Positions 9,763 to 28,474 of a stretch of DNA of 35,435 nucleotides are shown piece after piece. The stretch is taken from positions 1 through 35,435 of the IMG/VR virus record IMGVR_UViG_3300032073_000096. One strand, given 5' to 3'. The stretch is from a virus. Below the pieces are notes generated by a model, which was not told the origin of the DNA, made no database searches, and was given only the letters and a program-made list of their open reading frames with translations. The position numbers and the translations under genes are program-made. Within the stretch, counting starts at the first letter, position 1; each line of letters starts with the position of its first letter.

Positions 9763-10254
9763 TTATCGTTTTGTGGGTGGAATGAGATAACTCATTACGC
9801 CACTTTTTTCATCCTTAATTATTATTGGAGCAGTTGGGTTACGGTGTGCATATGATCTGATGTCTTGGTTGTTCATGTCTTCCATGTTCATCTTTCTAGA
9901 CCATCGTTCATACTTTGTTCGACCATTCATACACTTTGAATATTCTTCGCTGGTGACAGTGAATACAGAGCAACCAGCAAATTTTTCCTGCACCTTTTTC
10001 TTCTTCTTAGGTTTAATGGCAAGATCATCAGCATCTCTGCCTGCAACTTGAGGTTGATTTGGTTTGCCTAGGTTATATCCCATTCCAGAGATACCACCAC
10101 CCGCAGCAAAGTTTGCTGGTACATCCTCTTCCAATCCTTCGTTTCTTGGTACACAGTTGGGAACTCTCTTCCCATCTTTCATTTTGTATCCTTGCTGTAC
10201 ATGAGTACTCCAGCATTCACACAGTTCTTCGCGTAGTTGAGTGTATGTTTTCAT
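9763..10254 (-). CDS. Probable internal head protein with T4-type capsid-targeting N-terminus
   Basis: 163-aa protein. The N-terminus MKTYTQLREE is very like the MKTYQEF...E capsid-targeting sequence of T4 internal proteins. It is followed by a Cys-Trp/Lys/Asn-Cys module (QGYKMKDGKRVPNCVP), which I associate with structural or core proteins of marine T4-like phages. A lysine run (KPKKKKK) lies in the middle and the C-terminal half is mixed and soluble. The ATG overlaps the TGA of the preceding gene. Biochemical function is unknown; packaging in the head is inferred from the N-terminus. Confidence 0.65.
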   Translation of the reverse strand: MKTYTQLREELCECWSTHVQQGYKMKDGKRVPNCVPRNEGLEEDVPANFAAGGGISGMGYNLGKPNQPQVAGRDADDLAIKPKKKKKVQEKFAGCSVFTVTSEEYSKCMNGRTKYERWSRKMNMEDMNNQDIRSYAHRNPTAPIIIKDEKSGVMSYLIPPTKR

Positions 10255-10478
10255 TTATTATTCCTCTTATAATCTTGCCAGAAGTTCTGTACGCTTTTCT
10301 TGCGTTTTTGTTCTCGTATATTTTTTATCTTGGTGAGCGCCACTTTGCGGTTCTTGGATGGCATGGTAGGAGACACAGGAACCCCTTCAATCTTCTTGGA
10401 GGGTTTCTTGTTTGGTGTTGCAGGAATCCGTGAAGACTGCTGTCTCTTTGGTCTGTTTTTTCCACATCCACAACCCAT
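10251..10478 (-). CDS. Small basic protein with N-terminal Cys motif
   Basis: 75-aa, strongly basic protein beginning MGCGCGKNRPKRQQ. The CGCGKN start is seen in small proteins of several T4-like marine phages, as far as I recall. The rest is Lys/Arg/Pro-rich, which would suit DNA or core binding. The start at 10478 is chosen because AGGAG is 6 nt upstream and the ATG overlaps the preceding gene's TAA; the longer frame to 10526 lacks such a site. The stop TGA overlaps the next ATG. Function unknown. Confidence 0.7.
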   Translation of the reverse strand: MGCGCGKNRPKRQQSSRIPATPNKKPSKKIEGVPVSPTMPSKNRKVALTKIKNIREQKRKKSVQNFWQDYKRNNK

Positions 10479-10861
10479 TAGATGCTCCTTGTGATGGTTA
10501 GTAGTTTCTGCACCTGAAGATCGCATTGAGTCTGTCGTTGACCACCAGGCCAGTACAAGTAATCCTTTTCCTTATTTTTCTTTAGGTTCACAAGGAGAGG
10601 AAGTGTTACTCGTTCGATTTCTTTCATCTTTGCCTGTAGCAGTTCGTCGTATTGCTGCTTGACTGCACCAGCACCTTCGCAGGTAGAGTTCATCTGAAGA
10701 ATGAGATCCAACTTATCCTGCATTTCTTTGATTTCATCGGGAGTGGTTCCGTCATCGATCTTGATCAGCGAGTTTAATTCGTCCTCGTCCGCAGCAGTAA
10801 ATCCAAAATCGAAGTTAGAGTCTAGATATTCTTCTGGAATTTGTTGATCATCATTCGCCAT
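10478..10861 (-). CDS. Conserved phage protein of unknown function (127 aa)
   Basis: Soluble, acidic N-terminus (PEEYLDSNFDFGFTAADEDE) followed by helical segments and a KDYLYWPGGQR motif near the C-terminus. The pattern 'FGFTAxDEDEL ... EKDYxYWP' is familiar from short proteins in the structural clusters of marine T4-like phages. No catalytic motif is visible. It overlaps the gene upstream by 11 nt and is coupled downstream through TAATG, so it belongs to one transcript with its neighbours. Confidence 0.75.
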   Translation of the reverse strand: MANDDQQIPEEYLDSNFDFGFTAADEDELNSLIKIDDGTTPDEIKEMQDKLDLILQMNSTCEGAGAVKQQYDELLQAKMKEIERVTLPLLVNLKKNKEKDYLYWPGGQRQTQCDLQVQKLLTITRSI

Positions 10862-11285
10862 TAGTTTCTCCTACTTCGGTATTAAATAACCAGTTTAGTT
10901 CTATGTTATCAATATCAACACCTTCATCGTTTAGGTATTGTGTTATTTCATTTATAACATATTCACCATTACCGCCATGTTTTTCTGCTTCGTCCCGAAG
11001 AAGAACCATCGCTGTGGGGAATGTTTTTAATTGTGCTTTTAATTTTGGATCGGGGACTTTATTGATAATCTTTTTTAGATTGATAATAAGTCTATTGAAA
11101 ACGTCAACCGACTTTCTCTCGACGGGATTGAGTGAGTCAAGATCTCTTATAAACCTACCACTCGAATCTATAATTTTATACTTATACGCATCCATGCTAG
11201 TGAATGGGGATGATATGAGTTTGATGAACTTATAAACAGTGAAAGCACTTACTACTTTATTTAAATCGTTTACTTCGTTTATCAT
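10851..11285 (-). CDS. Conserved phage protein of unknown function (144 aa)
   Basis: Mostly alpha-helical soluble protein. A recognisable stretch is YKFIKLISSPFTSMDAYKYK near the N-terminus, followed by a Leu/Ile/Lys-rich middle and an acidic C-terminus. Similar short proteins occur beside the 126-aa and 127-aa genes in other T4-like phages, as I recall, which supports it being a real member of this block. The ATG overlaps the TGA of the upstream gene (ATGA). No function can be assigned. Confidence 0.75.
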   Translation of the reverse strand: MINEVNDLNKVVSAFTVYKFIKLISSPFTSMDAYKYKIIDSSGRFIRDLDSLNPVERKSVDVFNRLIINLKKIINKVPDPKLKAQLKTFPTAMVLLRDEAEKHGGNGEYVINEITQYLNDEGVDIDNIELNWLFNTEVGETNGE

Positions 11286-11662
11286 TTGATGCTCTCAAGT
11301 ATCTTAGTTATTCTGTGATCGGGCGGTATTCGTGACAGGTCTACTTCGGGTATTGTGTATGGTAAATGGTTTAAATATAGTAAGAATGATTTTAGGTGAG
11401 GGTGGAATTCTTTTCCTATTTTAAAAAACAAAATTCGTGAACAACCTTCCGCACCAAACACATTATATAATATTATTAAATGATTTAATACTAACCTCTC
11501 GCGGAGGAGTCCTTTCGATTCATATCTTCCTAGCAGTCGTTTGATGTATTTTATTCTGTTCAAATCCTCGTGAAACTCTTCCATGTTTTCACACTGTGGG
11601 TTTGAATACATCTTCATTGCATACATTAGAAAATTGTTTTTATTTAATTGTTTAAAATCCAT
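11282..11662 (-). CDS. Conserved phage protein of unknown function (126 aa)
   Basis: Helical, Leu/Asn-rich protein. Diagnostic stretches are NNFLMYAMKMYSNPQC, EFHEDLNRIKYIKRLL and RLVLNHLIILYNVFG, a pattern I recognise from a widely distributed but uncharacterised family of T4-like phages. Its constant association with the two following genes suggests a shared role, possibly in the virion or its assembly, but nothing in the sequence shows an activity. It lies 19 nt downstream of the 275-aa gene and is coupled by an ATGA overlap to the next gene. Confidence 0.75.
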   Translation of the reverse strand: MDFKQLNKNNFLMYAMKMYSNPQCENMEEFHEDLNRIKYIKRLLGRYESKGLLRERLVLNHLIILYNVFGAEGCSRILFFKIGKEFHPHLKSFLLYLNHLPYTIPEVDLSRIPPDHRITKILESIK

Positions 11663-11681
11663 AAACGAATACCAACTAATG

Positions 11682-12509
11682 TCAAGTCACTTTATGTCCC
11701 TTGTACTTCTTGTGTAACAATTCATCATGATCACCATCTTTAGCGTCACGATGGAAATCGTCTCTCATCTTACCTGCTACAGCATGAACGGTGTCTTTAC
11801 TAAATCTACTACCGTGTTCTTTGTGGTATCGATCTGAAGCATCTTTTGCTGCGTAGTGCCACGCTTTGTGTGCTTTGTCGTGATCATACTTTCCGGATGC
11901 CATCTTGTTTCTGAGGTTCTTCTGGATTGGCTTAATTCTCTGCCGGTGTAGATCTGAGTGATTATTTGCATATAGGTGTAGTTCTCGTCCATCAGTATCT
12001 AATCCCTCTTCAATGACTTCCTCAGTTTCTTCGTTGACGGTTCCTTCTGTTACAGGAACAACTTTAGCATCCATAGTGTAGAGTCCGCCTTCTGGCTGAT
12101 CTACTGAAACTTTGAGTGCTAGTCCCACACCATTGTTGAATTCTGAAATACCATCTGTAGTCTGGAATTCGTCGTGTGGTGTATCTACTGCTTTACCAAA
12201 CGTACCACCGAATCTGTTTAGTGGAATTTCTACCGATCCGCCATCGAATCCCGAGGTGTTAGTCCAGTCGAAGTCCAGAGTCATGGTATTGAACTTATGT
12301 CTTATTTGTGCCATTGCTCCCTTGGGATCCAAAAACTCTCTTTGAGTAAATGCATTGAGGAAGGCGTTGATACGACCTAGTTCGTCTTGGTTTTCAATCC
12401 GATGTACGCCATAATGACTGTGGGCGCTTCTTTGTCCAGATCCCCATGTGGTATATCCACTTTCTGCAAGTGGTTCTACTTTATTGATGATTTCTTTAAA
12501 TGACTTCAT
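11682..12509 (-). CDS. Probable internal head protein with capsid-targeting N-terminus (MKSFKEI)
   Basis: 275-aa protein beginning MKSFKEIINKVEPLAE, the T4-type capsid-targeting pattern with a plausible prohead-protease site (LAE-S). Residues about 15-170 form a beta-rich domain. After an acidic linker (EETEEVIEEG) comes a helical, His-rich domain starting ELHLYANNHSDLHRQR. That domain also appears in other phage proteins, where it has no known activity that I can name. The start at 12509 is preferred over the in-frame TTG at 12521 because GGAG is 6 nt upstream of it and a perfect late promoter lies 30 nt upstream. Confidence 0.7.
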   Translation of the reverse strand: MKSFKEIINKVEPLAESGYTTWGSGQRSAHSHYGVHRIENQDELGRINAFLNAFTQREFLDPKGAMAQIRHKFNTMTLDFDWTNTSGFDGGSVEIPLNRFGGTFGKAVDTPHDEFQTTDGISEFNNGVGLALKVSVDQPEGGLYTMDAKVVPVTEGTVNEETEEVIEEGLDTDGRELHLYANNHSDLHRQRIKPIQKNLRNKMASGKYDHDKAHKAWHYAAKDASDRYHKEHGSRFSKDTVHAVAGKMRDDFHRDAKDGDHDELLHKKYKGHKVT

Positions 12510-12539
12510 TTTAGTCTCCAATTGTTGTTATGTGCATAC

Positions 12540-12547
12540 TATTTATA
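12540..12547 (-). promoter_or_regulatory. T4-type late promoter
   Basis: TATAAATA reads on the minus strand, identical to the T4 gp55-dependent late promoter, 30 nt upstream of the ATG at 12509 in an otherwise short intergenic gap. Confidence 0.7.
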
Positions 12548-12559
12548 TATGCCATTGTT

Positions 12560-13192
12560 TCATCGGTGTTTGTTTAGTTGGTGTCCTAATTGAACTTCTA
12601 TGATCTTCCGGGATGTTTCCATCCACTCTGATACTGTTTCTGTGTCAATCTCGTCTGCTTTTGCCAGACTACACCACTGCGACATAACATATCCTATCGC
12701 TTGGTTGTTTTGTCTTATTGGTAGGAACGATAATGCTATGGTGTTGCTGTTTTCCATGAACTGCTTACACCAAGAATCTTCTAGTTCAGACACCATGTAT
12801 ATCTGTGGATCATCCTCAAGGACTAACGTGAGTCCATCTATACACATAGACAGGAGTAAGTCCTGTTTCACTTCGCGTTCGCTAGATACGCCTTTTCTTA
12901 GTGATTCGTGGGTTAGTGACTGCTTCTTCATCGAAATACCGTTTAGGAACTCACCACCATTATGAAACTGTACTATTTGTGCCCTTGCACAATCTGTTTT
13001 GACACGCAATTCGGTGAGTGTTTCGTGAAGTTGTGTATGCACATCCCAATTACAAGATGCAGGCATTTTTAAATCTGCGGGGGAAATTAGTTTAATTTTT
13101 CTTTTCTTCAACAAGAAAACAACTGCTGATATTGCTCCAGCACCAATACCCGCGACAACGCCCCCTAATTCAAACCAAAATGTAGTATCCAT
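12560..13192 (-). CDS. Membrane-anchored protein with a GAF-like soluble domain
   Basis: 210 aa. A hydrophobic helix near residues 8-28 is followed by KKRK, so the bulk of the protein is probably cytoplasmic, anchored by its N-terminus. The soluble part contains RAQIVQFHNGGEFLNG and later IALSFLPIRQNNQAIGYVMSQW. That order of strands is reminiscent of GAF or related sensor folds, but no ligand residues can be assigned. It starts directly after the TAA of the 1268-aa gene's coding strand neighbour and has a late promoter 32 nt upstream. Function unknown. Confidence 0.65.
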   Translation of the reverse strand: MDTTFWFELGGVVAGIGAGAISAVVFLLKKRKIKLISPADLKMPASCNWDVHTQLHETLTELRVKTDCARAQIVQFHNGGEFLNGISMKKQSLTHESLRKGVSSEREVKQDLLLSMCIDGLTLVLEDDPQIYMVSELEDSWCKQFMENSNTIALSFLPIRQNNQAIGYVMSQWCSLAKADEIDTETVSEWMETSRKIIEVQLGHQLNKHR

Positions 13193-16100
13193 TTACTTGA
13201 TCCTATTAAATTTCTCGTCTAGACTATTTATAGTCATAAAAGGTGTGTGTTTAGTGAGTTTCTTTCTTAGGGCGTCAGTACCATACTCGCCCGCACCACC
13301 TTCTTCATTTGTCTTGTTGTTTCCAATTCCTCTGTTTCTTGATGCAGAAGTTATTTGGATATTGTCGGACGAGTTATTTAAAGGGTTTCCATCTTTGTGG
13401 TGAACATCTTTACCGTCTCCAACTTTCAACTGACCTTTTCTAATTTTCTTATTTCTCAAACTGGTTCTAGAACTTCGTTTGGCTCTTTGCTCTGATGTAC
13501 GATTATATTCCTTCTGACGTTTAGCACGACGAACCGGATCCTCATCTTCAGACAGTGAGTTTAAAAATTCTAGTTCATCTCGTAAATCAGCGTAGTTGTC
13601 TTCACCAATCTCTATGCGTTCATAACCATCAGTCCATCTCAACACTTCTTTGATTACGTTACCAGTGTCACCTAATCTCGGTAGTATAGTTTCGAGGACA
13701 TGATTATAATCGATGAAGAGTTCTTCACCTTCTTCAATATCTTCTGTTGCAACCGTGTAGAAGTTACCGTCAACCTCTTCCAATCTAAGATTGGGGTGAC
13801 GACTGTGGTTGGTTAGACGACAGAAATCTGTTCTCTGGTATTGTGGAACATCTTCTGTGATGTTAAGATAATACATTCCTAACATCTCACCATTTTCGAC
13901 ATTCTCCGTGGCAAAACTACCAAGTCCATGTCGATCTGACTCTTTAAACTCATAGGAATTCTTTAGAGTTGCGATGTTGGTTTTCTTGTTGTAGTTGTAT
14001 TGACTAGGGGACTTACCATCCTTCTTTGCTGCACGATCTTTTGCACGTTCACCAGCAGACATGCTGTTTCTTTTCTTGCCTTTGTCTGTTAGTTGTTGAC
14101 TGCCTTTCTTTAGCACACCATTCTTCTGGAGAGAGGCGTTTGCGATGGCATATGCAGCGTCCTTCGACTTACCCTTTGCCATGAGTTGCTGTACTAGACG
14201 ATCAAGGATCTCTGGTTCCCTCAGTAACTGAACAGATTCCTCTACGGTTTCTGTGTCGTCTTCGCCCTCATTGTAATCGACATCCTTTTCAATTGGAATT
14301 CTCTTAGTCATACCATTGATTACGATGTCGGTGTATTCACCAGACTCTTCGACGTTGAGATCAGCAAGGTTGATAGAACTGGTGTCAATTGAATCTACTT
14401 CAATACCAAGGAACTCTTGAAGTCTGCCTGGATCTGATCCAATATACTTCGTTGCCTTATTCATGTATTCTTTAAAGTTTTCGTCACCTTCGTTCATCAT
14501 CCTATTAGCAACCCATTCAAACGCTTCTTTTGTATCTGTAAATCCCTTGGCTTTAACAATCATACCAAGTGCTGACCAATAAGAATATGAACCAGTCTTC
14601 TGTCTCTGGGAAGATTTGAATCTGGTAAGAATGTTTAGGTTTGCAGGGAGTGCAACTTTATCGATATAGTCAGGATCAATTTGGATAAGTTTAGATTTGG
14701 TTCCGTCTCTGTTCATCGATAGAACGTGTGTTGCACACGCATCAGAGTCTTTACCAAACTTCATCTCTCCTGTCATTGATTCGTGAATGATCGCACGTTT
14801 AAACACTGTGCTACTTTCCATTAGTTCTGAGAACTTTTGGGTATGTTCCTTGTGGAGATCGTCGATTTCTTTCAGTCCTTTGATATCTCCTTCTTTTTCC
14901 CCACCAGCAAGGAATTTGCTTACTTTGTTTTCGCCTGCTGATCCTGTGGGTGTTTGTGCCGTTGTTACCCACGATTCTTGCATTTCTTTTAGTAGACCCT
15001 GTACTGCTTTTCTAGTCTTTGGTTCTTTTTTCAGTTCGTCGCCGTGCTTGTCCAAGATGTTTTCTAGAGTTGCTCGTGCTTCGCCTAACTTTGCAGACAT
15101 GAGTTGTGCATCGCCACATTTTACCGATACGCGAATATTTTCCCCAGTCTTTTTATTCTTAAGCATCAAGTCTGTTTTTGGTGTGCTATCAGTCCCGCCT
15201 TTATCTGACCATGCACTCGTCAGTGGTTCGCTGGATCTACCAAAGTGAACTGCTTCATAGTCCGCAGCATCCCCACCAAGTTGCTCCTTGATAGTATCTA
15301 CAAGTCTTCTGGAAGAATCTTTTAGTGTTTCACTTTGTTTAATTTTTTGCTGATCTGTGTCTGATATTAAACCGACTTTACTGTCATGTTCATGATCATC
15401 ATTCCACACATCAACAAATCCTGCTTCCATGTCTACTGCTTTGTGATCCCAGTCAGGAAAGAGAGAACCCTTACCCTGAATAGTTTTACCATTCTTGGGT
15501 ACACGTTTTGCAGGGGTTAATTCCGGTGCAGGCATTTCTTCGGGTTGTTGCATTTGTCCCTGTTGATCCGGGGACTGTTGCGTGTTTGCGCCTTGTCTCT
15601 TATCTGCTACCTGTTGCTGCGCCTGTTGCGCCATTGATTTCTTTTGTTGTTCCCATCCGAGTAATTTCTTCGCAGTTGATGTCCACTTGAAGTCCGGATC
15701 AACCGCGAGTCTGCCTGCTTTACCTGCATTGAGTTTACCTTTAGGTTTCTCACCCGGTGCAGATCCTGCAATAACTTCTGAGTGTTGATCTGGACTATAA
15801 TCTTGTCCAAGAATAATTTTAATCTTGTCTTGATTATCTCTTACTGCTATAACTGAGTCCCACGGATTAGTTGATGCACGTTCCCCACGTTTTCTAGCAG
15901 CGTCTCTTTCCTTGGGATCCGATGTACCATTACCTCGATCCTGTTCTCGTTCTACTTTACGTCGTCTTGCTTCCTGATCGACGGAAGATACTTCGTTGAT
16001 CATACTGAGGAAGTCTACGTCCATACTCTCTACTGCCTTTGCGGGATCGTTTGTTGTCATTCTTTGTCTCACCTGTTGAAGTCGTTCGGTTTCTGCTTTC

Positions 16101-16999
16101 TTCATCTGTGGAACCAATTTCTTTGATATGCGTGCGATAGCAGCCTTTTTCTTCTGTACCTTCTTGCCAATCTTTTCTCGCTCTTGGAACGATACATCAG
16201 ACCATTTTCTATCACCAAGGATCTTTTTGCGAATGAGTTTGACTGCTTCTTTTCCTGCTTTCGCCTTGATTTGATCTGAACCCTTGCGTCGTTTTTCTTT
16301 CATCTTCCTTGCACGCATTCGCCTTTTTGCAGTCTTCTTAGCGGCACGTTGTAGTTTGCGTCTACCCTGTGTGCTTAGTTCGTTGATTGCCTCTTCTCGG
16401 AACTCGACGAACTCTTCATGATTGAACCACGACTCTGCTATAAAAGGCTTAATTCCCATTCCTTTTTGTACGGCCGCAAAGAGTCCTTTACTATCCCTTT
16501 CACTCATGTGAGTGGGAAGACCTAGGAGGAATGCTTGATAGTTTCCTTCTGCCGCGGCACCACGCATCTTTGATGCAGACATACCTTCAACGCCTTCCGC
16601 ATCAGGATCTCTATCTCCTGCGGATACTACCTCGAAGTTAGTAAACATATATTCTTTGCCAATATACTTGGGGATTTGCTTTTGGAACTCAGCAACTCGA
16701 TCACCACCGACTACCATAGTGACATCGGTGTATCCTGCATCGCTTAGTTTCTTGAGTAGTACGAATGGCGTATTCGCCTTGGCATCAACAGAGACATTGA
16801 ATCCTTTAAGCACTTTCTTCATGTACTTTTCTTTGTCTCTCGCAGACAAAGGATTCTTTTTCTTGTCGGTGCTGCTACTACCGAAGATAGCATGTTCTGC
16901 ACCGCGCCGTCTTGCTTCTTCTTTTACTTTAGTCGCCAGTAATAAATGTCCCGTGGTGGGGGGATTGAATCTGCCAAATGTAAAAACAATTTTCTTCAT
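13193..16999 (-). CDS. 1268-aa multidomain protein: nucleotidyltransferase, nuclease-like, SET and HNH-like regions
   Basis: Residues 1-185 are a nucleotidyltransferase of the NMN-adenylyl/cytidylyltransferase fold: GRFNPPTTGH (9-18) and SASKMR (141-146) are its two nucleotide-binding motifs. A long Arg/Lys-rich helical region follows. Around 600-660 TPKTDL ... RVSVKCG resembles a PD-(D/E)XK nuclease core. Around 960-1010 lies a helical module (DAAYAIANASLQ). Residues about 1016-1100 read as a SET domain (GLGSFATENVENGE, NHSRHPN, FIDYN), as in lysine methyltransferases. Around 1199-1209 VHHKDGNPLNN is HNH-like. The ATG at 16999 has GGAGG 9 nt upstream. Possibly a packaged or proteolytically processed polyprotein; that is inference. 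Confidence 0.8.
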   Translation of the reverse strand: MKKIVFTFGRFNPPTTGHLLLATKVKEEARRRGAEHAIFGSSSTDKKKNPLSARDKEKYMKKVLKGFNVSVDAKANTPFVLLKKLSDAGYTDVTMVVGGDRVAEFQKQIPKYIGKEYMFTNFEVVSAGDRDPDAEGVEGMSASKMRGAAAEGNYQAFLLGLPTHMSERDSKGLFAAVQKGMGIKPFIAESWFNHEEFVEFREEAINELSTQGRRKLQRAAKKTAKRRMRARKMKEKRRKGSDQIKAKAGKEAVKLIRKKILGDRKWSDVSFQEREKIGKKVQKKKAAIARISKKLVPQMKKAETERLQQVRQRMTTNDPAKAVESMDVDFLSMINEVSSVDQEARRRKVEREQDRGNGTSDPKERDAARKRGERASTNPWDSVIAVRDNQDKIKIILGQDYSPDQHSEVIAGSAPGEKPKGKLNAGKAGRLAVDPDFKWTSTAKKLLGWEQQKKSMAQQAQQQVADKRQGANTQQSPDQQGQMQQPEEMPAPELTPAKRVPKNGKTIQGKGSLFPDWDHKAVDMEAGFVDVWNDDHEHDSKVGLISDTDQQKIKQSETLKDSSRRLVDTIKEQLGGDAADYEAVHFGRSSEPLTSAWSDKGGTDSTPKTDLMLKNKKTGENIRVSVKCGDAQLMSAKLGEARATLENILDKHGDELKKEPKTRKAVQGLLKEMQESWVTTAQTPTGSAGENKVSKFLAGGEKEGDIKGLKEIDDLHKEHTQKFSELMESSTVFKRAIIHESMTGEMKFGKDSDACATHVLSMNRDGTKSKLIQIDPDYIDKVALPANLNILTRFKSSQRQKTGSYSYWSALGMIVKAKGFTDTKEAFEWVANRMMNEGDENFKEYMNKATKYIGSDPGRLQEFLGIEVDSIDTSSINLADLNVEESGEYTDIVINGMTKRIPIEKDVDYNEGEDDTETVEESVQLLREPEILDRLVQQLMAKGKSKDAAYAIANASLQKNGVLKKGSQQLTDKGKKRNSMSAGERAKDRAAKKDGKSPSQYNYNKKTNIATLKNSYEFKESDRHGLGSFATENVENGEMLGMYYLNITEDVPQYQRTDFCRLTNHSRHPNLRLEEVDGNFYTVATEDIEEGEELFIDYNHVLETILPRLGDTGNVIKEVLRWTDGYERIEIGEDNYADLRDELEFLNSLSEDEDPVRRAKRQKEYNRTSEQRAKRSSRTSLRNKKIRKGQLKVGDGKDVHHKDGNPLNNSSDNIQITSASRNRGIGNNKTNEEGGAGEYGTDALRKKLTKHTPFMTINSLDEKFNRIK
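13225..13232 (-). promoter_or_regulatory. T4-type late promoter
   Basis: Second perfect TATAAATA on the minus strand, 32 nt upstream of the ATG at 13192 and lying inside the 3' end of the preceding coding region. The near-identical spacing to the site at 12540 supports function. Confidence 0.65.
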
Positions 17000-17063: not shown

Positions 17064-17072
17064 CAATTTAAT

Positions 17073-17290: not shown

Positions 17291-17641
17291 TTATTTTTGA
17301 GTGAGTTTTTTACAAACAAAGCCTTTATGATGATTCCTAGTTCCATTCATTACTCCATACATTGCTGCTTTATTGAGTTCATTTTCTCTACAGAATTTGC
17401 TGAAGTTTGTCACCAAATACTTTATTCCTGAAGAGTCCGTAAACTCATATTGAGTTTCTATCGGTTCATTGATCGTTTCATCATTATTATATAGGGTTTG
17501 CCATTCCCAATACTTCCCATTTTTTTCAAATCTACCACCGTGTTCTGAAATAAACTTTTCTCGCCAGATGTGAGATTTAGAATCATCATTCATCTTGATC
17601 CAAGTTTTGGTATTTCTTCGGTTTACTAAGTCTTTATTCAT
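17291..17641 (-). CDS. Small protein with NUMOD-like DNA-binding motif
   Basis: 116 aa. The C-terminal half contains VTNFSKFCRENELNKAAMYG followed by a basic NHHKGF, matching the modular DNA-binding repeats (NUMOD type) found in phage homing endonucleases. No GIY-YIG or HNH catalytic core is visible, so it is either a free-standing DNA-binding protein or the remnant of a homing endonuclease. The N-terminal half is basic and Trp-rich. It lies between the ligase-like gene and the 40-aa peptide gene on the same strand. Confidence 0.65.
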   Translation of the reverse strand: MNKDLVNRRNTKTWIKMNDDSKSHIWREKFISEHGGRFEKNGKYWEWQTLYNNDETINEPIETQYEFTDSSGIKYLVTNFSKFCRENELNKAAMYGVMNGTRNHHKGFVCKKLTQK

Positions 17642-17643: not shown

Positions 17644-18840
17644 TTATATCCAGTTCTTATCTACTGTAAAGTTTGCTCTACTGAATTCCAGTCTATCAAC
17701 CAACTTTACTGCATTTTTAGTGAGTTTATCGATTGCAACGAACCCCTCGGGTGCCGTTACATTAAATCCAGTAGCAGTTTGTATAAATGTTCCAATGGAC
17801 TTGACTGACTCTAATTTTCGTACAAGAATAATTTTAGCAGACGTAAGAGATGCGTGCAGTGCGAAAACAGTATCCAAGTTTGTATTTTTGGCTTTAAGAT
17901 AACTTACCATCTCATCGCGTGCAGATTCTTTTCTCGCCTTTGCGGCATCCGTCTTAAGTGCATCTATTCCTGCTTGTAGTTTACTATCAATCCATTCAGT
18001 AAACCCAGAAGAGGAAAGAGATGTCACACCCTTACGTACTTGCTGATTTGCGTAGATGTTTAATTCATCTACTACTTTAGAATTGTCCTTTAGTTCATCC
18101 AAAAACGATTTAGATGAGGACAATAAGGATCTCGCGGTCTTAAGATGACCGTTTAGTGTTTCCGTTTCGCTTGATGTGAGAGTTGCAGTCCCCGTTACGT
18201 CTCTAAACTTGGCATCATCGACCCACACACCAGATACTTTCTTTAGTGCATCTACATTTACGTTGAAAGATGCTTTCATCTTTGATGTTGATCTCCCAGT
18301 ATACTTTGTGTGGAATACAATACCCATCTTAGATGATTGTATTTTCTTACCAAAGTCAGAGTCAACAGGCACTGCATATGTAATTGTGTTCGGTGTAAAG
18401 GTGTAATAAGATTCACCTTTTATTTTCTTTACAGTAACATCACCGGGACCAAACATCATGTCACCTTGAATCACTCCCTTGATAGGAAGTTTCTTGAGGT
18501 ACTTGAGTGCAGTCTCAAGAGATCGTGATACACCGCCTGGATGATTCTTCCTGATGTCAGCAACTGTGTAGTTTATCTTTGGAGTCTTATTGAATATACT
18601 TTTAGTACCGACAAAGAACTTCTTTGTCTCTGGATGAATACCACAGAAAATTGCCGGCGCTCCGTCCCATTTTACCGTTGCACTTATCTTTGTTGCCGCT
18701 TGTCCTGATAGCATCTTCGCAACCTCTTCAGCAAATGAGATTGCTTCCTCTACTCTTCCACTACCCTCAAAGACAAGATCTTCAAGGTGGGTCATGTGAG
18801 TGTTCTTTGCTTCAGTTAGATATGTGCTAAATGACTTCAT
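17644..18840 (-). CDS. Ligase/nucleotidyltransferase-like protein with capsid-targeting N-terminus
   Basis: 398-aa protein beginning MKSFSTYLTEA, the T4-type capsid-targeting pattern with a site (YLTE-A) suited to the prohead protease. The body carries an order of motifs like the DNA/RNA ligase superfamily: KWDG at 57-60 (motif I, K57 the possible nucleotide-binding lysine), FVGTKS at 76-81, VIQGDMMFGPG at 123-133 (motif III-like) and GIVFHTKY at 173-180 (motif IV-like). The C-terminal half is helical. Proteins of this kind in cyanophages are, I believe, labelled as a domain of unknown function. Ligase activity is an inference from motif order; motif V is not clear. Confidence 0.7.
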   Translation of the reverse strand: MKSFSTYLTEAKNTHMTHLEDLVFEGSGRVEEAISFAEEVAKMLSGQAATKISATVKWDGAPAIFCGIHPETKKFFVGTKSIFNKTPKINYTVADIRKNHPGGVSRSLETALKYLKKLPIKGVIQGDMMFGPGDVTVKKIKGESYYTFTPNTITYAVPVDSDFGKKIQSSKMGIVFHTKYTGRSTSKMKASFNVNVDALKKVSGVWVDDAKFRDVTGTATLTSSETETLNGHLKTARSLLSSSKSFLDELKDNSKVVDELNIYANQQVRKGVTSLSSSGFTEWIDSKLQAGIDALKTDAAKARKESARDEMVSYLKAKNTNLDTVFALHASLTSAKIILVRKLESVKSIGTFIQTATGFNVTAPEGFVAIDKLTKNAVKLVDRLEFSRANFTVDKNWI

Positions 18841-18857: not shown

Positions 18858-19538
18858 CTACACAGTGACTTGCTGTCTTTGGTAATTTAGAATTGCTTTT
18901 CTTAATGCTACTACATGATTCACCGGGTTACCTGTAAACACCTGTGGTGTTGCTCGATCTTCTGAAGCAACCAGTATATTATACTCTTTGATAGGAATAC
19001 CAGTTCGCTCTTGCCACATAATACAGTATGCTGTTGCCTGTAGGTGATAATTTTCAATATCTTTAGATCGTTTAGTTCTAGTGCTACCCTTGAAGTCAAT
19101 GACAGATAGTGTACCATTGTATTCTGCGATACAATCGACTCTACCTGCCAGTTCAAGTGTTCTACTAAACAACGCCACTTCCAATGCACGGACGTTATCA
19201 ATCTTGTCTAGTTCTGGTTTAATCTGCACAAACAAGTCTGCCACATTTGGATCAAGACTCATAAGATCAACGTCTTCGTTGTTCAGATAATCCTCGATGA
19301 TATTGTGTAGGTTGTTTCCACGACGCAACACTCGTTTGCTTTCTTGTGGGTTGTTTCTTCGCCATTCTGCAAAGAATTTCTGTTTTTCCCAACCAACCAC
19401 TGTCGTGACGCTAGGAAAATTACCCACTGGAGTGGAATATGTTCGAGTTCCGTCTCCGCCTGTGTTTGCTTTCATTTCAGCCAGAGATTCAATGTGTTCT
19501 GGCAGTTCAATGTGGTTAAAGATCTTCTGCATGTACAT
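18858..19538 (-). CDS. PD-(D/E)XK exonuclease, Cas4/RecB-like
   Basis: Predicted metal-dependent DNA exonuclease. Motifs are in the family order: RRGNNLHNIIEDYL (motif with conserved His/Glu), LAGRVDCIAEY (catalytic Asp), LSVIDFKGS (D-x-K core) and NYHLQATAYCIMW (Gln/Tyr motif). Length about 226 aa fits. GGAG lies 6 nt before the ATG at 19538, but that SD overlaps a sigma70-type promoter whose transcript would start at the next in-frame ATG (19532), so the protein may be two residues shorter and made from a leaderless mRNA. It diverges from the + gene at 19613. Confidence 0.85.
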   Translation of the reverse strand: MYMQKIFNHIELPEHIESLAEMKANTGGDGTRTYSTPVGNFPSVTTVVGWEKQKFFAEWRRNNPQESKRVLRRGNNLHNIIEDYLNNEDVDLMSLDPNVADLFVQIKPELDKIDNVRALEVALFSRTLELAGRVDCIAEYNGTLSVIDFKGSTRTKRSKDIENYHLQATAYCIMWQERTGIPIKEYNILVASEDRATPQVFTGNPVNHVVALRKAILNYQRQQVTV

Positions 19539-19566
19539 ATTATACTCCAATTACTATAAATGTCAA
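19539..19566 (-). promoter_or_regulatory. Sigma70-type promoter, possibly leaderless
   Basis: Minus-strand TTGACA (19561-19566), 16-nt spacer, TATAAT (19539-19544), both perfect consensus. The ATG at 19532 lies 7 nt past the -10 box, where transcription should begin. Confidence 0.75.
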
Positions 19567-21217: not shown

Positions 21218-21284
21218 TTAATAACTCCTTTGAAGTTTGTATTAGTTTATATGAGTATGTAGTAAAAACTATAATTAGTGCCTA

Positions 21285-23159
21285 TTATTTATTCTTCTTT
21301 GCTTTATGAATTGCATCTAATTTCTTATCATACTCTTTGTCATTCAGTGCTTTGTTCATTTCCTTAGCGGTTGGTTCTGGGTTGGACTTATCCAAGTCAG
21401 AGACATTTTCGCCTACATCTTTCTTTCCAGGCCAGTCTCTCATCTTGGTGGTGATCTTCTTACCACCTGGTCCAACTGATTGGATCTTATATCCAATCTT
21501 CTTTTCTGGATTTAGTTTAACCTTGATCTTTGGTGCTTCATCCATTGGGGTACGACTTGCACTCTGACGTTTTCGTGCGAGGGACATGGGATTTTCTGCA
21601 CCATCCGCGTCACCCTTACGAAGTTTGCCGCCTGCCTTGAGATCTGCTCTTGCCGCACCACGACTATATGCCTTGCGAACCTCTGGATCTCTTGCTCGTC
21701 CTCTTTCGTCCTTCGCTGGCATCTTGAGTTCATCGAGTTCGACTTCTTCGTCGTACTGACGAGCAACGAGTTTCTTGGTTGCCTTATCGACACCCTTCGC
21801 TCTTTTATTAGTTTTATTAGTGACTTTTCCGAAATCGCCGTACTTGTCCCGTGTAATTTGGGCCCTCGCTTTGTCTTTGTAATTCATAATAGTGGCCTTC
21901 TTGAGTTCATCGACTTGTTCAATGTCCTCGTTGTATGGGAATCCCTTACCCTTGAGTGGTTGTTCGATACCCATTCTCTTAGCGTCTTCATCACTGATTT
22001 GTTCACCCATACGTTTCCTGTAGTCCTTACCGGCAATACTACGCATGTCGAGATCAGTCTTGGCCTTTACCACACCCTTTTGTCGCTTTCGTAACTTGTC
22101 CATCTCACCCTTGTCTGCTTTCATGTGACTTGGTTTGTCTGCCATTCGAGCGACACGATTGGTGTTGTCCTTCTGTGCCTTACCGATGTAGGACTTCATG
22201 GTTTTTGCATCAAGTTCATCAACCTGTTCAAAGGATTCATTTGAGATTGTATAATTTTTGATTTTGTTCTTTTTAAGTTCAGTGTCAAGTCGTTTTCTGT
22301 CGCCCTTTGGTACTTTGATTTCACCATTTGGTGATATCACACCCATGACGCCAATTTTTCTCATGATCTTACGAGCCTCATAGTTTTCATCAACCTGCTC
22401 GACTTCTTCGTTCTTCTTTTTATATTGACCTGTATATACAACATGGTTGCCATCATTATCTTTTTCAACACTACCTTGCGGGTATTTCTTTCTTAATTTG
22501 GAAACCTGATCACCGGATAATTTTGTATTGGTGTAACCAACTTTTTGTCCAGTATTATCGTGATCATATTGCTGGATAACTTCATCAACCTGTTCGACTT
22601 CTTCGTTCTTCTTACCAGCAAAGAGTCTCTGTCCTTTGTACTTACCAGCAACGTCAGGAATGCCAGCATCTCTGCGACTTCTCACTTCTGCACTCTTGTT
22701 GTGCTTCGTAACTAGTCTATCAGCAGTTGCTTTGTCATGTCCGTGAGACATACCCATTGCACCTCTTGGGTGGTTCTTGAGAACAGAGTACGTTCCGTCA
22801 TCTCTCTTCTTTGTGAAGTGTGCAGGTTCTTTGGCTTCACCAATGTTCATCTCAGACATCTCGGGATCGTACTCGGGGTTCTCTGGGTCGAAGTGTTCCA
22901 TGACATCATCGACACTCAAGTACATGTCGGAGTCAGTGTCGTAGTACTTGCCTGCCTTCTTGTCGTAATAGAAGATCTTTCCAGACTTCTTGCTACGGTA
23001 CGGACCCTCAAGTCCTTGTTTTTCTTTGTTGGGATACCTGTTTCTGTCTATACCAGGCACAACACCCTTTTTCTTGAACTTCTTATAGTGTGCCTTTGCA
23101 GACATTTCATTCATGTGTTCTACTGCTTGTTCGATCAGTGACTTATTTTCGTTTTCCAC
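21285..23159 (-). CDS. Modular prohead-core polyprotein with five EQVDE-type motifs
   Basis: 624 aa, highly basic with acidic punctuation. Five near-identical motifs occur at 185-193 and 250-258 (NEEVEQVDE), 307-316 (NESFEQVDEL), 410-419 (NEDIEQVDEL) and 470-478 (DEEVELDEL). Upstream NIGE-A at 105-109 fits the (L/I)xE-(A/G) site of the T4 gp21 prohead protease. The modules after the third and fourth motifs resemble each other (helical start with K(T/A)xMxxYxxKA and an end with KRxKGVxKAxxxL). This looks like a string of small Lys-rich units cut apart during head maturation. It overlaps the upstream gene by 17 nt. A direct DNA-condensing role is inferred. Confidence 0.7.
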   Translation of the reverse strand: MENENKSLIEQAVEHMNEMSAKAHYKKFKKKGVVPGIDRNRYPNKEKQGLEGPYRSKKSGKIFYYDKKAGKYYDTDSDMYLSVDDVMEHFDPENPEYDPEMSEMNIGEAKEPAHFTKKRDDGTYSVLKNHPRGAMGMSHGHDKATADRLVTKHNKSAEVRSRRDAGIPDVAGKYKGQRLFAGKKNEEVEQVDEVIQQYDHDNTGQKVGYTNTKLSGDQVSKLRKKYPQGSVEKDNDGNHVVYTGQYKKKNEEVEQVDENYEARKIMRKIGVMGVISPNGEIKVPKGDRKRLDTELKKNKIKNYTISNESFEQVDELDAKTMKSYIGKAQKDNTNRVARMADKPSHMKADKGEMDKLRKRQKGVVKAKTDLDMRSIAGKDYRKRMGEQISDEDAKRMGIEQPLKGKGFPYNEDIEQVDELKKATIMNYKDKARAQITRDKYGDFGKVTNKTNKRAKGVDKATKKLVARQYDEEVELDELKMPAKDERGRARDPEVRKAYSRGAARADLKAGGKLRKGDADGAENPMSLARKRQSASRTPMDEAPKIKVKLNPEKKIGYKIQSVGPGGKKITTKMRDWPGKKDVGENVSDLDKSNPEPTAKEMNKALNDKEYDKKLDAIHKAKKNK

Positions 23160-23418: not shown

Positions 23419-23466
23419 GTGGTGTTCCTTCATAATGTATATATATAATATCAAACGGAGGACAAT

Positions 23467-23745: not shown

Positions 23746-23752
23746 GTCTATA

Positions 23753-24064: not shown

Positions 24065-24072
24065 GAGAAGTT

Positions 24073-24683: not shown

Positions 24684-25210
24684 CCTTGTATATGAAAGTC
24701 TAACCACCTCGACCACATCTCTTTACCATTCTCATCTATAACAATCATTTGCAGACCAAAGAACGTAGGTTTCTTTGGTTTGTTTTTTAGTTTCATACTA
24801 CACTCTTTGAGTAGTTTGTTACCCTTCGAGAGATTACACTTGCGACATGCAGTCACCAGATTAGTCCATCCGCCATCGCCACCTTTGGATCGTGGATGCA
24901 CATGATCGAGTGTGAGTTTCTTTGTGTCTTTACATTCTTTACCACAATACTGGCATGACCATTTGTCTCGCTTGAATATATTCTTACGAGTTGGTTTCAC
25001 ATCCACGTTCCAAGGTACTTGAACATAACGAACAAGGACAAGTGCGGCGGGTAGTTTATATTCCCCTGCACTCGTCCTTATGTTATGGTGTCTATTATAT
25101 CCATGTGGTTTCTGTGCTTTTCCACTCTCTATGAGTTTGACTGCACGCTTCCAGTCGATTACTTTAAGTACCTCTTCACTAGCATTCAATAAAAGAACTT
25201 CTTTATGCAA
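24680..25210 (-). CDS. HNH endonuclease
   Basis: 176 aa. The N-terminal VLLLNASEEVLKVIDWKRAV and ESGKAQ stretch is the usual extension of a common HNH subfamily. The core is CQYCGKEC, LTLDHVHPRSKGG (catalytic His), NLVTACRKCN with the second zinc-binding pair, then KGNKLLKE. The start is TTG at 25210, supported by a strong AGGAGG 6 nt upstream; no nearby in-frame ATG gives the family's N-terminus. It may be a packaging-associated nuclease, a homing-type nuclease or a host-DNA nuclease; a free-standing homing role is plausible because it sits between gene blocks. Confidence 0.9.
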   Translation of the reverse strand: MHKEVLLLNASEEVLKVIDWKRAVKLIESGKAQKPHGYNRHHNIRTSAGEYKLPAALVLVRYVQVPWNVDVKPTRKNIFKRDKWSCQYCGKECKDTKKLTLDHVHPRSKGGDGGWTNLVTACRKCNLSKGNKLLKECSMKLKNKPKKPTFFGLQMIVIDENGKEMWSRWLDFHIQG

Positions 25211-25263
25211 GTGTTTCCTCCTATAAGTGACATATTATATAGGAAATGGCATATATACTATAG

Positions 25264-25995
25264 ATGTTATTCGTAAGATCAGTCTTTATGTTACTGCTGA
25301 TCGTCGTAACTACTAGTTGTGCATCCCGTGAAAAGTTAGACGATACTAATCGTACATCAACATTTTCTCAAGAACAAACGAAATTACATTTTGATTTTAT
25401 TGAACACAGCACCATTCCTGCTGCTGGATCATTGTACAACAAAGACGACAAGTTTGTTGGTTCGTGTGTTCTTGTAACTAAAAATATTGCACTGACCGCT
25501 GCTCACTGTATTCATTATGGTGATCTTAAGTACGTTAGGTTTGGCGAAGAAAAAATACTAATCGATATGCAATTCATCCACAAGGACTATTTCTTGTCTG
25601 GTGATGACATTGGTTTACTAGCATTTTCCACTGAATCAACACACACTCCTATGCCACTATTACAGAATGTAGAAGACCTCGGTGCGATGATTCCTCTACG
25701 CACAATCGCTCATGGTGGTGGTGATAAGAAGATAAGCAAGGATGATGTGTTTAGGTTCTATGGTATACTGAAAAATAGACCAAACGAAGTCATATTTCTC
25801 CCACTCAAAACCACTGTCTGGTTCGGTGATTCTGGTGGTGCCTTAGTCTGGGAAGATTCGGATGGAAACTATGCTCTGGTAGGAATCATCACACACTTTT
25901 CAACTGCTGATGATAAAATCTATGAGTGTGCGGCACGACGTACTGACACATTCAATCTGTGCGACGATATATGGCATCCTTGGTTTGTTGAATAG
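25264..25995 (+). CDS. Secreted trypsin-like serine protease, lipoprotein-type signal
   Basis: 243 aa. A hydrophobic leader (residues 4-16) ends in a lipobox-like TTSC (C19), so the protein is probably exported and may be lipid-anchored in the envelope. The S1 protease triad is present in order: H81 in LTAAHC, D115 in GDDIGLLAF and S190 in FGDSGGAL, with Cys pairs that could form disulfides. Family length for a minimal trypsin fold is met. No clear SD precedes the ATG; a TATACT box at 25254-25259 is close enough to suggest a leaderless transcript, though its -35 is poor. Substrate unknown; an envelope or competing-phage receptor target is conceivable. Confidence 0.85.
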   Translation: MLFVRSVFMLLLIVVTTSCASREKLDDTNRTSTFSQEQTKLHFDFIEHSTIPAAGSLYNKDDKFVGSCVLVTKNIALTAAHCIHYGDLKYVRFGEEKILIDMQFIHKDYFLSGDDIGLLAFSTESTHTPMPLLQNVEDLGAMIPLRTIAHGGGDKKISKDDVFRFYGILKNRPNEVIFLPLKTTVWFGDSGGALVWEDSDGNYALVGIITHFSTADDKIYECAARRTDTFNLCDDIWHPWFVE

Positions 25996-26001
25996 TCACG
26001 A

Positions 26002-27045
26002 TCACTTCGAGAGAAAGTCTCTGATCTCTTCGTAGTTACTGTATGCTTTATCACCCGAACGACTCTTCTTGTTCTTCACCCATGCGTCAATATACATGGG
26101 ACGGTTTATTCCCTTGTTACCATACTCAGGACCAGCATCAACAATATCTTGTAGTGTCTTCTTCTGTGACCTATTGAGTTTGGCAAGGTTCACTTCGACA
26201 TCAATCTCGCGGGAGTTGTTTCGGATTCGTGCCCATCCCTTTTCGTGTGGTGCATTGTATACAACCTTACCCATATTATCTGGTGCCTTCTTACCGAAAT
26301 ACTTGGTGAAGTTTGCTGCTACCCAATCATAGTGTGTATACGGGTGTCCTTTGGGGTGTGTGATCTCTTTACTCGCGTTCATATCGTATACCTTACCCTT
26401 GGGATCAATCCAGAGTGTGTGACCAAACTTACCTTCGTTGAGTTCTTCCCACTCACGGAACATCGCCATTGTTCGTCCGATGTCACTACGCTTGTCTACG
26501 CGAATCTTCGAGGGATCTGGTTGGTTACCATCCAACCATACGTCAATGCGTTGCTTGTCTTTGAGTGTCTCTAGAGTCTTGCGTTGACCACCCTGATAAA
26601 ACAACTGTAATTCAAGGTATTTGGCGTTCCGTGGTGACATGCGTGGATTCTTCTTGTCGAGATGTTTAGCAACTGCGTGTACACTACGCCAATCAGATCC
26701 CCCGATGGTTGTATATATGCTATCGATGACGATACGACACCATCCCTTTCGCATTGCTTCAAACTCGACCGGATGATCGATGTCCCATTCTCCACTGCGA
26801 AGATATGCTAAATGTTGTTCTGCTGATTCCTCTGGATCGGGTGCATCCATTTTGTCAAACCTAGTTGTCAACACACGAAGAACACTCTTGTCATTCATAC
26901 GAAACTTAGATAGGTTATTGGTGAGGTATTGTACGTGGTATGGTTCTACACTACGCCATGTGTGCATTTTGCCACCTTTAGCATTGACCCACCCTTTGGA
27001 CATGCCACCAGTTGCTTCCTCAATATATTCGCTAAATGATTTCAT
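26002..27045 (-). CDS. Probable internal head protein with capsid-targeting N-terminus and duplicated domain
   Basis: 347 aa beginning MKSFSEYIEEATGG, the capsid-targeting pattern with YIEE-A as the likely cut site. The rest contains two related units. The first (about 18-125) has WVNAKGGKMHTW, PYHVQYLTNNLSKF and KGWCRIVID. The second (about 205-325) has LWIDPKGKVYDM, PYTHYDWVAANFTKYF and KGWARIRNNS. A helical linker joins them. No catalytic motif is visible. GGAG lies upstream and the ATG overlaps the previous TGA. Not recognised by name; likely packaged with DNA if the N-terminus is functional. Confidence 0.65.
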   Translation of the reverse strand: MKSFSEYIEEATGGMSKGWVNAKGGKMHTWRSVEPYHVQYLTNNLSKFRMNDKSVLRVLTTRFDKMDAPDPEESAEQHLAYLRSGEWDIDHPVEFEAMRKGWCRIVIDSIYTTIGGSDWRSVHAVAKHLDKKNPRMSPRNAKYLELQLFYQGGQRKTLETLKDKQRIDVWLDGNQPDPSKIRVDKRSDIGRTMAMFREWEELNEGKFGHTLWIDPKGKVYDMNASKEITHPKGHPYTHYDWVAANFTKYFGKKAPDNMGKVVYNAPHEKGWARIRNNSREIDVEVNLAKLNRSQKKTLQDIVDAGPEYGNKGINRPMYIDAWVKNKKSRSGDKAYSNYEEIRDFLSK

Positions 27046-27503
27046 ATGTCGCTCCAGAATACTCTTTCTTTACCCGTACTATTTATTCTTTTGGCAAGTG
27101 CTTTCATTGTCTTGTTTTTAAGGGCGAAGTCTGTACCTACGGTGCGTGAGTTATGCACGATAACTCTCAGGTTACCTGACTGGTGGACGATTGCATCATC
27201 ATCATCGAGGTTCAAGAACCCAACGACACCCTTTGCATATGTTCCACTCACATATTTCTCACCTGTCATAGCAAACACCACCGCATCGTGTAATGCTTCG
27301 TCACTGTCCCATGCCCACATCTTGCCTTTCGTATCTACAAGCCACCTCAATTCATAGAACTTTGCCTTTTTCATGTGTGTGACAAGTTCCCTTTCGGTGG
27401 GGTTTTCTAAACCACGAAAGTTTTCCCACTTCGCACCTTTGTATGGTAATGCCGCCGATAATTTCGCAGGCCTCTCTGTGATGTATTCGCCAAATGATTT
27501 CAT
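27042..27503 (-). CDS. Probable internal head protein, one-domain relative of the downstream gene
   Basis: 153 aa beginning MKSFGEYITERPAKL (capsid-targeting pattern, site YITE-R). The body has LRWLVDTKGKMWAW, then a Gly/Val-rich strand, LRVIVHNS and a helix ending MKALAKRI, which repeats the order of the unit present twice in the 347-aa neighbour. So the two genes are paralogous. The start at 27503 is preferred over the upstream GTG (27515) because it restores the MKSF motif and gives the usual ATGA overlap with the upstream gene. Function unknown. Confidence 0.65.
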   Translation of the reverse strand: MKSFGEYITERPAKLSAALPYKGAKWENFRGLENPTERELVTHMKKAKFYELRWLVDTKGKMWAWDSDEALHDAVVFAMTGEKYVSGTYAKGVVGFLNLDDDDAIVHQSGNLRVIVHNSRTVGTDFALKNKTMKALAKRINSTGKERVFWSDI

Positions 27504-28474
27504 CAACAGTCCCACTTACGGAGTGCGAGTGCCTTGCGAGTTGGTTTACCCTTTTCGTCCTTCATTGGACCTTTCATACCACCCATTCTCGCACAGAATG
27601 ACTTCCGTCTTCCTGCGGCCTTGCCATCAGGGTTCTTGGATGCAGTCTTCGATGATACAGGTGCTTTGAGATCGGATCCGGGGTTCTCTCGTTCGTATGA
27701 TGCACGACCTTTGGCGTTCAATCCGCCTTCACTGTTCTTGCCTGCTTTACGTTGCCATGCCGCAGACTTCTCAATGACGTTACCCTCTTCGACCTTTTTA
27801 GTCTCAGGATCGTCGTGGTTATAACCCTTTTTCTTCATCTCAAGGTGATCCTTTTCTGTTTTGGCTTTATACCCCTTGCCAGTTTTAGGATCATACATCA
27901 TGTGAGGTTTGAATTCGTCCTTGTCTTCATTCTGTTTACCATAGGTGACGCAAGGATCTTTACCACAACCGCAGTTTTTAGGTGTTTTTTCCTCTTCTAC
28001 ACTCTCAGTTTTCCACTTACCGCCGGCGGCCTTGTACTGTTTCGATGCCCAACCATTAGCATATGCAGAAGGGTATACGTCAAACTTCGCCTTTGCCTGT
28101 GACTTGAACTTCGACCAGAGTGATGGGTTGGTTGGTACGTTCTTTTCCTGTAAATAATCCTTAAATGATTTCATAGATTCCCCTATTTTGTTGGATACGT
28201 TAATTGGTTTATTGCCAGTACCGGGACGATCAACATCAGAGTCATTTCGCCTCTTGCGTCTCACTGCGGCACCTCGTTCATCCTTCGACATCTTACGCGC
28301 CTTTTCTTTAGACAGGCACTTTGGTTTACCCTCGCCGGGTTCTCTCGCACACTTACCGACACGTTCGCCTTTAGTATTGTAACGATCCCAACCACCACCG
28401 CCGGCACCGCCTTTTTTACCAGTACCAAACCATTTGCGTAGATCTTCCGAGAAATAATTTGTAAATGATTTCAT
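27503..28474 (-). CDS. Basic modular protein with two capsid-targeting motifs
   Basis: 323 aa, strongly basic. It begins MKSFTNYFSEDLRKWFG and continues with a Gly-rich GGAGGGGWDRYNTKGERVGKC module. A second MKSFKDYLQE occurs at residue 101, its ATG (28172-28174) preceded by AGGGG, so a shorter protein may start there. The middle holds FDVYPSAYANGWASKQYKAAGG and a CGCGKDPC motif. The C-terminus (GLNAKGRASYERENPGS, RRKSFCARMGGMKGPMKDEK) matches domains of unknown function common in phages of aquatic bacteria. GGAGG precedes the first ATG. It may be two ancestral internal proteins fused, or one gene making two products. Confidence 0.75.
   Translation of the reverse strand: MKSFTNYFSEDLRKWFGTGKKGGAGGGGWDRYNTKGERVGKCAREPGEGKPKCLSKEKARKMSKDERGAAVRRKRRNDSDVDRPGTGNKPINVSNKIGESMKSFKDYLQEKNVPTNPSLWSKFKSQAKAKFDVYPSAYANGWASKQYKAAGGKWKTESVEEEKTPKNCGCGKDPCVTYGKQNEDKDEFKPHMMYDPKTGKGYKAKTEKDHLEMKKKGYNHDDPETKKVEEGNVIEKSAAWQRKAGKNSEGGLNAKGRASYERENPGSDLKAPVSSKTASKNPDGKAAGRRKSFCARMGGMKGPMKDEKGKPTRKALALRKWDC

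Follow-up and report, generated by a model that had tools for sequence, protein, structure and literature searches.

We analysed the 35,435-bp virus record IMGVR_UViG_3300032073_000096 (the window), a fragment of an uncultured marine T4-like phage in which at least six unrelated proteins carry a shared N-terminal tag of 10-16 residues. We are highly confident that this N-terminus is a capsid-targeting sequence (CTS) of the type known from the internal proteins (IPs) of bacteriophage T4, serving as an interchangeable tag on modular cargo that includes polyproteins probably cut by the prohead protease. The 10-residue form, MKSFxx[FY][ILF]xE, opens four minus-strand genes (starting at 18840, 27045, 27503 and 28474) and recurs at an internal site (28174), and longer leaders open the genes starting at 12509 (16 residues) and 10254 (13 residues). 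The leader lengths of 10, 10, 10, 10, 13 and 16 all lie inside the T4-type range of 10-19, that of T4 IPI, MKTFKEFTSTTTPVSTITE, being 19 residues. All seven sites named in an earlier sequence-only reading of the window are present at their coordinates on the minus strand, five in the full 10-residue form and two as longer variants. Its claim that the bodies differ completely also holds, as a comparison by hhalign of the 27503-gene family with the C-terminal module of the 27045 gene aligned the 10 leader columns and nothing else.

The positions shared by these leaders are few and regular. F4 and Y7 occur in all four 10-residue leaders and in the internal copy, both positions being aromatic in T4 IPII and IPIII too, and the 12509 and 10254 leaders have F or Y at position 4 and I or L at position 7. 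Positions 8-10 of the 10-residue sites read IEE, ITE, LTE, LQE and FSE, and the longer leaders end in LAE and LCE. The tagged genes and associated features are listed in Table 1.

Between 9.8 and 28.5 kb, nothing in a set of 50,697 phage records matched the window closely; relatives of this part lie behind the primase-helicase in two marine T4-like phages, HTVC008M (gp126-135) and Melnitz (genes 15-23). The sequence-only reading had placed the tagged genes among probable head-core proteins, which proved inaccurate for their neighbourhood: they form no part of a head-gene cluster and follow the replication genes, as do the corresponding genes in HTVC008M and Melnitz, where head genes 20-23 are found elsewhere.

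Table 1. Tagged genes, leaders and predicted junctions in the window; leaders are read as probable capsid-targeting sequences, and a slash in a motif marks the junction.
Feature	Position	Strand	Remarks
CTS leader MKSFTNYFSE, then D	28445..28474	-	gene 27503-28474; body also found behind VMKE/ in S-BM3 and behind TFEE/ in L023
Tagged 323-aa protein, DUF5872-like and DUF6321 domains	27503..28474	-	cyanophage relatives, some annotated structural protein
Internal copy MKSFKDYLQE, then K	28145..28174	-	AGGGGA before; possible cleavage junction and internal translation start
CTS leader MKSFGEYITE, then R	27474..27503	-	
Tagged 153-aa protein, no assigned fold	27042..27503	-	fused behind [IL]xE in L108-L110
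CTS leader MKSFSEYIEE, then A	27016..27045	-	
Tagged 347-aa protein, at least two modules	26002..27045	-	
Predicted internal cleavage junction LNE/G before module FGHTLWIDPKGKVYDMN	26434..26442	-	same module directly after CTS in L103-L105
CTS leader MKSFSTYLTE, then A	18811..18840	-	
Tagged DUF6267 protein, 398 aa, putative nucleotidyltransferase/ligase-like	17644..18840	-	PF19782 1.3e-115
Probable cargo polyprotein without leader: cytidylyltransferase/NMNAT-like, Melnitz-shared domain, SET, HNH	13193..16999	-	
Long CTS-like leader MKSFKEIINKVEPLAE, then S	12462..12509	-	relatives start MKSFKDF (HTVC008M) and MKNFKNHIAE (Melnitz)
Tagged 275-aa protein	11682..12509	-	
Long CTS-like leader MKTYTQLREELCE, then C	10216..10254	-	next module CWSTHVQxGYK sits behind INE/ in L100 and L102
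Tagged 163-aa protein	9763..10254	-	

Distribution of the leader and its match to the T4 signal

A degenerate DNA pattern for the 10-mer matched the window four times and its reversed control not at all, and the strict protein motif was present at 4 of 72 N-terminal ATGs in the window versus 2 of 210 interior ones. Of these two, one is the 28174 copy and the other, in the 29618-31870 protein, is a match by chance. Among 80 IMG/VR loci collected through the DUF6267 protein, without using the motif, 79 of 1742 N-terminal ATGs carried it versus 1 of 4934 interior ATGs, with many of the matches coming from DUF6267 itself, the body used for selection, and dozens lying on other genes. A blind scan of 2.9 million IMG/VR contigs with a 30-nt DNA pattern, reading roughly MK[ST]FK[EQ][FY][IL][ST]E, returned at least 120 matching stretches, and a control with a scrambled pattern of the same residues returned one. 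Among the matches listed, 84 in 80 loci were read; all were open downstream and 83 stood at gene starts (at most 40 codons from the earliest possible frame start). In T4 itself, which served as a positive control covering about 149 of its 169 kb, the strict motif matched only IPII and IPIII, and a looser regular expression added 61.1 (MKTFKEFIKE) and two unrelated starts. The uncharacterised T4 gene 61.1 (L008:19130, minus strand) starts MKTFKEFIKED, which is CTS-like, and may encode a further T4 internal protein.

Conservation within the leader points to particular residues. Nearly all of the 80 DUF6267 relatives collected without the motif carry xxFxx[FY][IL]xE directly before a conserved KNxHLEHLED, and F4 is nearly invariant in 30 relatives likewise chosen without it; when 33 tagged proteins of mixed families were aligned, the only invariant columns were M1 and E10. 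The CTS was defined by experiment on the leader of T4 IPIII, where nothing beyond the first ten residues is required, positions 4 and 7 serve targeting, positions 8 and 10 serve processing, and Asp at position 10 leaves targeting intact and inhibits cutting (PMC9026906). The conserved positions of the marine tags, 4, 7, 8 and 10, are those mapped by this mutagenesis.

The bodies behind the leader are diverse: 112 tagged genes fell into 35 body clusters, in which recognisable bodies include an adenylate kinase, a zeta-toxin-like P-loop kinase, a cytidylyltransferase/NMNAT-like protein, a SAM lyase, a fusion of cytidylyltransferase, RimK ATP-grasp and Zn-protease, and a weak match to 5'-nucleotidase (NT5C). 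The blind scan contributed an HD_4 hydrolase and a methyltransferase, as well as two bodies matching a PHROG called virion structural protein.

The T4-type CTS is a known mechanism, found here in a wider and more modular form. As in T4 IPI, IPII and IPIII (Mullaney and Black 1996, reviewed in PMC9026906), a leader of 10-19 residues, MK[TS][FY]xx[FY][IL]xE/, with the same functional positions stands before unrelated bodies, and related phages encode a gp21-type protease; the form of the tag is identical to the CTS of IPII and IPIII. Unlike T4, which has three such proteins, small and basic, the window has at least six such genes on 35 kb, and the marine tag is also carried by enzymes and by multidomain proteins with internal junctions. 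The bodies are not homologous either: no homology was found between window-type bodies and T4 IPs, and the T4 IPII and IPIII bodies formed singleton clusters. T4 Alt, a packaged ADP-ribosyltransferase, is comparable as a head-packaged enzyme that is processed by gp21 and ejected into the host, and differs in starting MELITELFDE rather than MK[ST]F; no Alt homologue was found in the window.

Module junctions, protease and virion proteomics

Several bodies stand directly after the leader in one phage and form part of a larger protein in another. The module FGHTLWIDPKGKVYDMN of gene 26002-27045 is internal behind LNE/G in the window, L100 and L102, and follows MKSFKQYIIE/G in L105 and MKSMKQYIIE/A in L103 and L104 (MKSMKQYILE in L104). 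Similarly, the 27042-27503 body stands behind a separate leader in the window, L106, L107 and L111, and is fused behind VLLE/, YLTE/ and YLAE/ in L108-L110. Candidate polyprotein junctions in the cultured phage S-BM3 read VMKE/DLRDWF and YIEE/KNVPT. Over all loci, [ILVMF]xE falls precisely on the boundary in 26 of 61 deduplicated junctions, with a peak at offset 0 (background 2.2%, binomial p=8e-27, a value that overstates independence, as related sequences give several of the junctions). F or Y at position 4 occurs in 5 of the 26 exact junctions (absent from 21) versus 98 of the 112 N-termini, the latter having been selected by a motif requiring F, Y or L there. This suggests that the cutting half of the signal persists where the docking half would not be needed, which agrees with the expectation from the T4 mutational data.

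Copies of the 28174 type are embedded in longer proteins in L100, L103, L104 and L110; in L106 the copy is N-terminal. All five internal copies, the window included, are preceded by a Shine-Dalgarno-like sequence, which is present before 6.2% of interior ATGs; L103 and L104 are close relatives, so that the five copies amount to about four observations. The internal copy may be a gene fusion that kept its internal start.

HTVC008M, Melnitz and S-CREM2 each encode a gp21-family protease. Of 14 linked IMG/VR records, 9 encode Peptidase_S77 (the gp21 family), among them every one of the six that reach at least 100 kb. By eye, the major capsid proteins have [IL]xE where T4 gp23 is cut (T4 FLTE/A, Melnitz FLSE/A, S-CREM2 LLTE/A, HTVC008M FLGE/I).

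For one of these relatives, Synechococcus phage S-CREM2, a virion proteome has been published (PMC10665884, Table 3), and the comparison covered 206 annotated proteins (gp1-84 and gp86-207). According to that table, all five motif-bearing proteins were detected in virions, namely gp6 (SAM hydrolase, MKDFDSFLEE), gp13 (MKDLHSFLTE), gp14 (APH-like kinase with a GTG start, VKRFDAFLTE), gp136 (MQTFSMFFSE) and gp154 (cytidylyltransferase, MKNFSSFLTE), and none of the 161 undetected proteins carried the strict motif, which had been fixed before the genome was seen except for two added letters affecting none of the five matches. The association of tag and virion presence is significant among non-structural proteins (Fisher p=3.6e-5) and among all proteins (4.2e-4), and with a looser motif, which also matches one undetected protein, gp175, it remains so (p=2.0e-4). 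A further candidate, gp12 (annotated Cas9-like), was not counted, its LRFASFMAE/AA lying 16 residues from the start and following a CTG codon. The virions of S-SM1 and S-SCSM1 likewise contained a cytidylyltransferase or NMNAT. These T4-like cyanophages are alike in carrying cytidylyltransferase/NMNAT and other non-structural proteins in virions, as found by mass spectrometry; in the available portions of the reports, no shared leader is described and contamination is not excluded, and the tag would supply a mechanism.

Proposed role and alternative explanations

The T4-type reading that had been proposed for the window is supported from several sides: the functional positions, the unrelated bodies, the confinement to gene starts, the gp21-type junctions and the co-occurrence with the protease, all read directly from the sequences, agree with one another and with the presence of tagged proteins in the virions of S-CREM2, a relative in which published proteomics places them there. 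From these we infer core docking, cleavage, ejection and a function in the host. During head assembly, the aromatic residues 4 and 7 would dock a tagged protein onto the prohead core, and a gp21-type protease would cut behind [ILF]xE, at position 10 in the short leaders and at position 13 or 16 in the long ones, freeing the body inside the shell before DNA packaging. Because the tag sits on many unrelated bodies, head loading would be modular; in some fused bodies, the cutting half [ILVMF]xE is kept at module junctions and the docking half lost, which suggests loading of a tagged polyprotein in one piece, with cutting to follow inside the head. The cargo would probably be ejected with the DNA, like T4 IPs and Alt, and act on the host at the start of infection. 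Phages with the tag probably carry a large and interchangeable protein cargo.

Several observations weigh against this reading, in addition to the dependence among junctions given above. One clade of DUF6267 proteins carries MFSFKGFxTK, in which the aromatic positions are kept and E10 is replaced, and cleavage therefore cannot be universal. The 1268-aa protein of the window has no CTS, and the window, as a 35-kb fragment, is without genes 21, 22 and 23. Total counts of [ILV]xE are not over-represented in most window proteins, placement alone being special, and the raw number of such sites was dropped as evidence. Many S-CREM2 virion proteins (gp15, gp155, gp156 and gp160 among them) lack the strict motif, so the tag is not necessary for packaging, and the S-CREM2 authors warn that such enzymes may be co-purified contaminants (PMC10665884). 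The shared T4-type leader argues that these enzymes are loaded on purpose.

Among the alternatives, the one with the most weight, which we nevertheless consider unlikely, holds that the tagged proteins are packaged scaffold only, that is, prohead core or assembly factors that stay in the head or are degraded, with no delivery to the host. T4 IPIII does affect head morphogenesis (PMC9026906), some tagged bodies match the virion structural PHROG, and many window bodies are basic and have no known function; yet the tagged bodies include many soluble enzymes without an obvious part in assembly (adenylate kinase, NMNAT-like, RimK-type, SAM lyase, HD hydrolase), and the bodies vary strongly among relatives, unlike core proteins.

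It is very improbable that the leader acts only as a translation-initiation or start-region element promoting expression, with no part in targeting. Six window leaders do have ATGAARTCATTT in common, and all six window MKSF sites use TCA-TTT for Ser-Phe, TCA making up 22% of Ser and TTT 47% of Phe codons there; across contigs, a shared synonymous codon excess is found mainly at positions 2 and 3. Such codon sharing fits copying of the leader between genes, and may instead reflect a start-region codon preference. Conservation, however, runs at the protein level as far as residue 10 although the codons vary, internal junctions remote from any start retain E10 and [IL]8, and the tag is associated with virion presence. 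We give equally little credence to a membrane, export or host-compartment signal in place of a capsid signal: the peptide is short, N-terminal, aromatic and predicted to be flexible, but it has no hydrophobic stretch or signal-peptide layout, its form is identical to the IPII/IPIII CTS and associated with virions, and among long records it is confined to phages with a gp21-family protease. Repeated duplication, with the bodies diverged and the N-terminus a relic, is the least credible, since the bodies belong to recognised unrelated folds and a given body may have the leader in one phage and lack it in another, even if leaders within one contig are partly alike at the DNA level.

Further known systems resemble a T4-type CTS in part. 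The N-terminal capsid signal of P1 DarB, of which the first 30 residues are sufficient (PMC9024508), is likewise an N-terminal packaging signal with an unrelated sequence, and the SPN3US/phiKZ propeptides, several of which in SPN3US exceed 100 residues and are cut at AxE (PMC5694885), are also cut after xxE by the prohead protease and are unrelated in sequence. The polyvalent proteins of phages and plasmids (PMC5512222) are similarly multi-domain and proposed for phage and plasmid conflicts. In the literature searched, with subscription papers outside its coverage, we found no description of a CTS in cyanophages or marine phages.

The sea is very rich in T4-like phages, and few of their genes have been given a role, so a tag that can be read from sequence is of use in picking out candidate head-delivered proteins. 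The tag also offers a mechanism for the repeated finding, in cyanophage virions, of enzymes such as cytidylyltransferase/NMNAT, SAM hydrolase and kinases, which the proteomics authors left unsettled, and suggests a rule by which the docking residues 4 and 7 would be needed once per protein and the cutting residues at every module junction. In its broadest form, towards which we lean only slightly, the proposal is that one interchangeable address tag is common to T4-like phages of the sea and of fresh water and brings dozens of unrelated enzymes into their heads. Tagged polyproteins would be cut by the prohead protease into separate cargo, tags with an internal ribosome-binding site would yield two products, and a short N-terminal pattern would thus predict which uncharacterised genes encode proteins injected at the very start of infection.

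Tagged bodies and neighbouring genes

In the DUF6267 protein, an AlphaFold2 model gave a good body (pLDDT 80) with residues 1-15 lacking confident structure. The KWDG, EG-V and K-V stretches are invariant in 30 sequences, and we take them to resemble ligase/nucleotidyltransferase motifs I, IV and V; a Foldseek search of the PDB gave no match at E <= 0.001, with DNA ligases among the sub-threshold matches. Members of the MFSFKGF.T[KQT] clade (L035, L043, L044, L066, L080, L087 and others) are predicted to be targeted and not cut at that site. For the 153-aa protein, the predicted fold was of lower confidence (pLDDT 64) and found no structural match. The 11682-12509 protein has partial relatives in HTVC008M and Melnitz (tblastn), and single-sequence patterns confirmed no IMG/VR relatives. 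Elsewhere, a tagged HD_4 domain protein (L126:279-842, plus strand, 3.6e-16), presumably SpoT-like, is a possible virion-carried alarmone hydrolase.

Encoded at 13193-16999, the 1268-aa protein contains a cytidylyltransferase/NMNAT-like domain, a basic stretch, a domain also present in Melnitz gene 15, a SET domain (PF00856, 1.6e-8) and, at its C-terminus, an HNH motif that scores below the Pfam cut-off. In Melnitz, the shared domain carries its own CTS (MQGFKTFLSE). A restriction-enzyme label for the middle domain was rejected and stands as a lead only: L069 matches the REase_II model and aligns weakly to the window domain (E=0.022). Between the DUF6267 and cytidylyltransferase genes lies an I-HmuI/NUMOD-like gene (17291-17641, minus strand; 4.7e-5, below cut-off), the insertion of which may have removed the cytidylyltransferase leader that is seen in Melnitz. 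The same gene block holds a PD-(D/E)XK/Cas4-like nuclease without a leader (18858-19550, minus strand).

A 624-aa protein (21285-23159, minus strand) has four near-identical EQVDE linkers between differing segments; such repeats were found in only 12 of 2070 genes and were not generalised as a cleavage linker. On the plus strand, 25264-25995 encodes a trypsin-like serine protease (PF00089, 6.5e-9) with a lipobox-like signal sequence, TTSC. Also on the plus strand, 2330-3274 weakly matches the PHO4 phosphate transporter family and 6339-7451 is, by eye, outer-membrane-porin-like, making both possible host phosphate-uptake genes.

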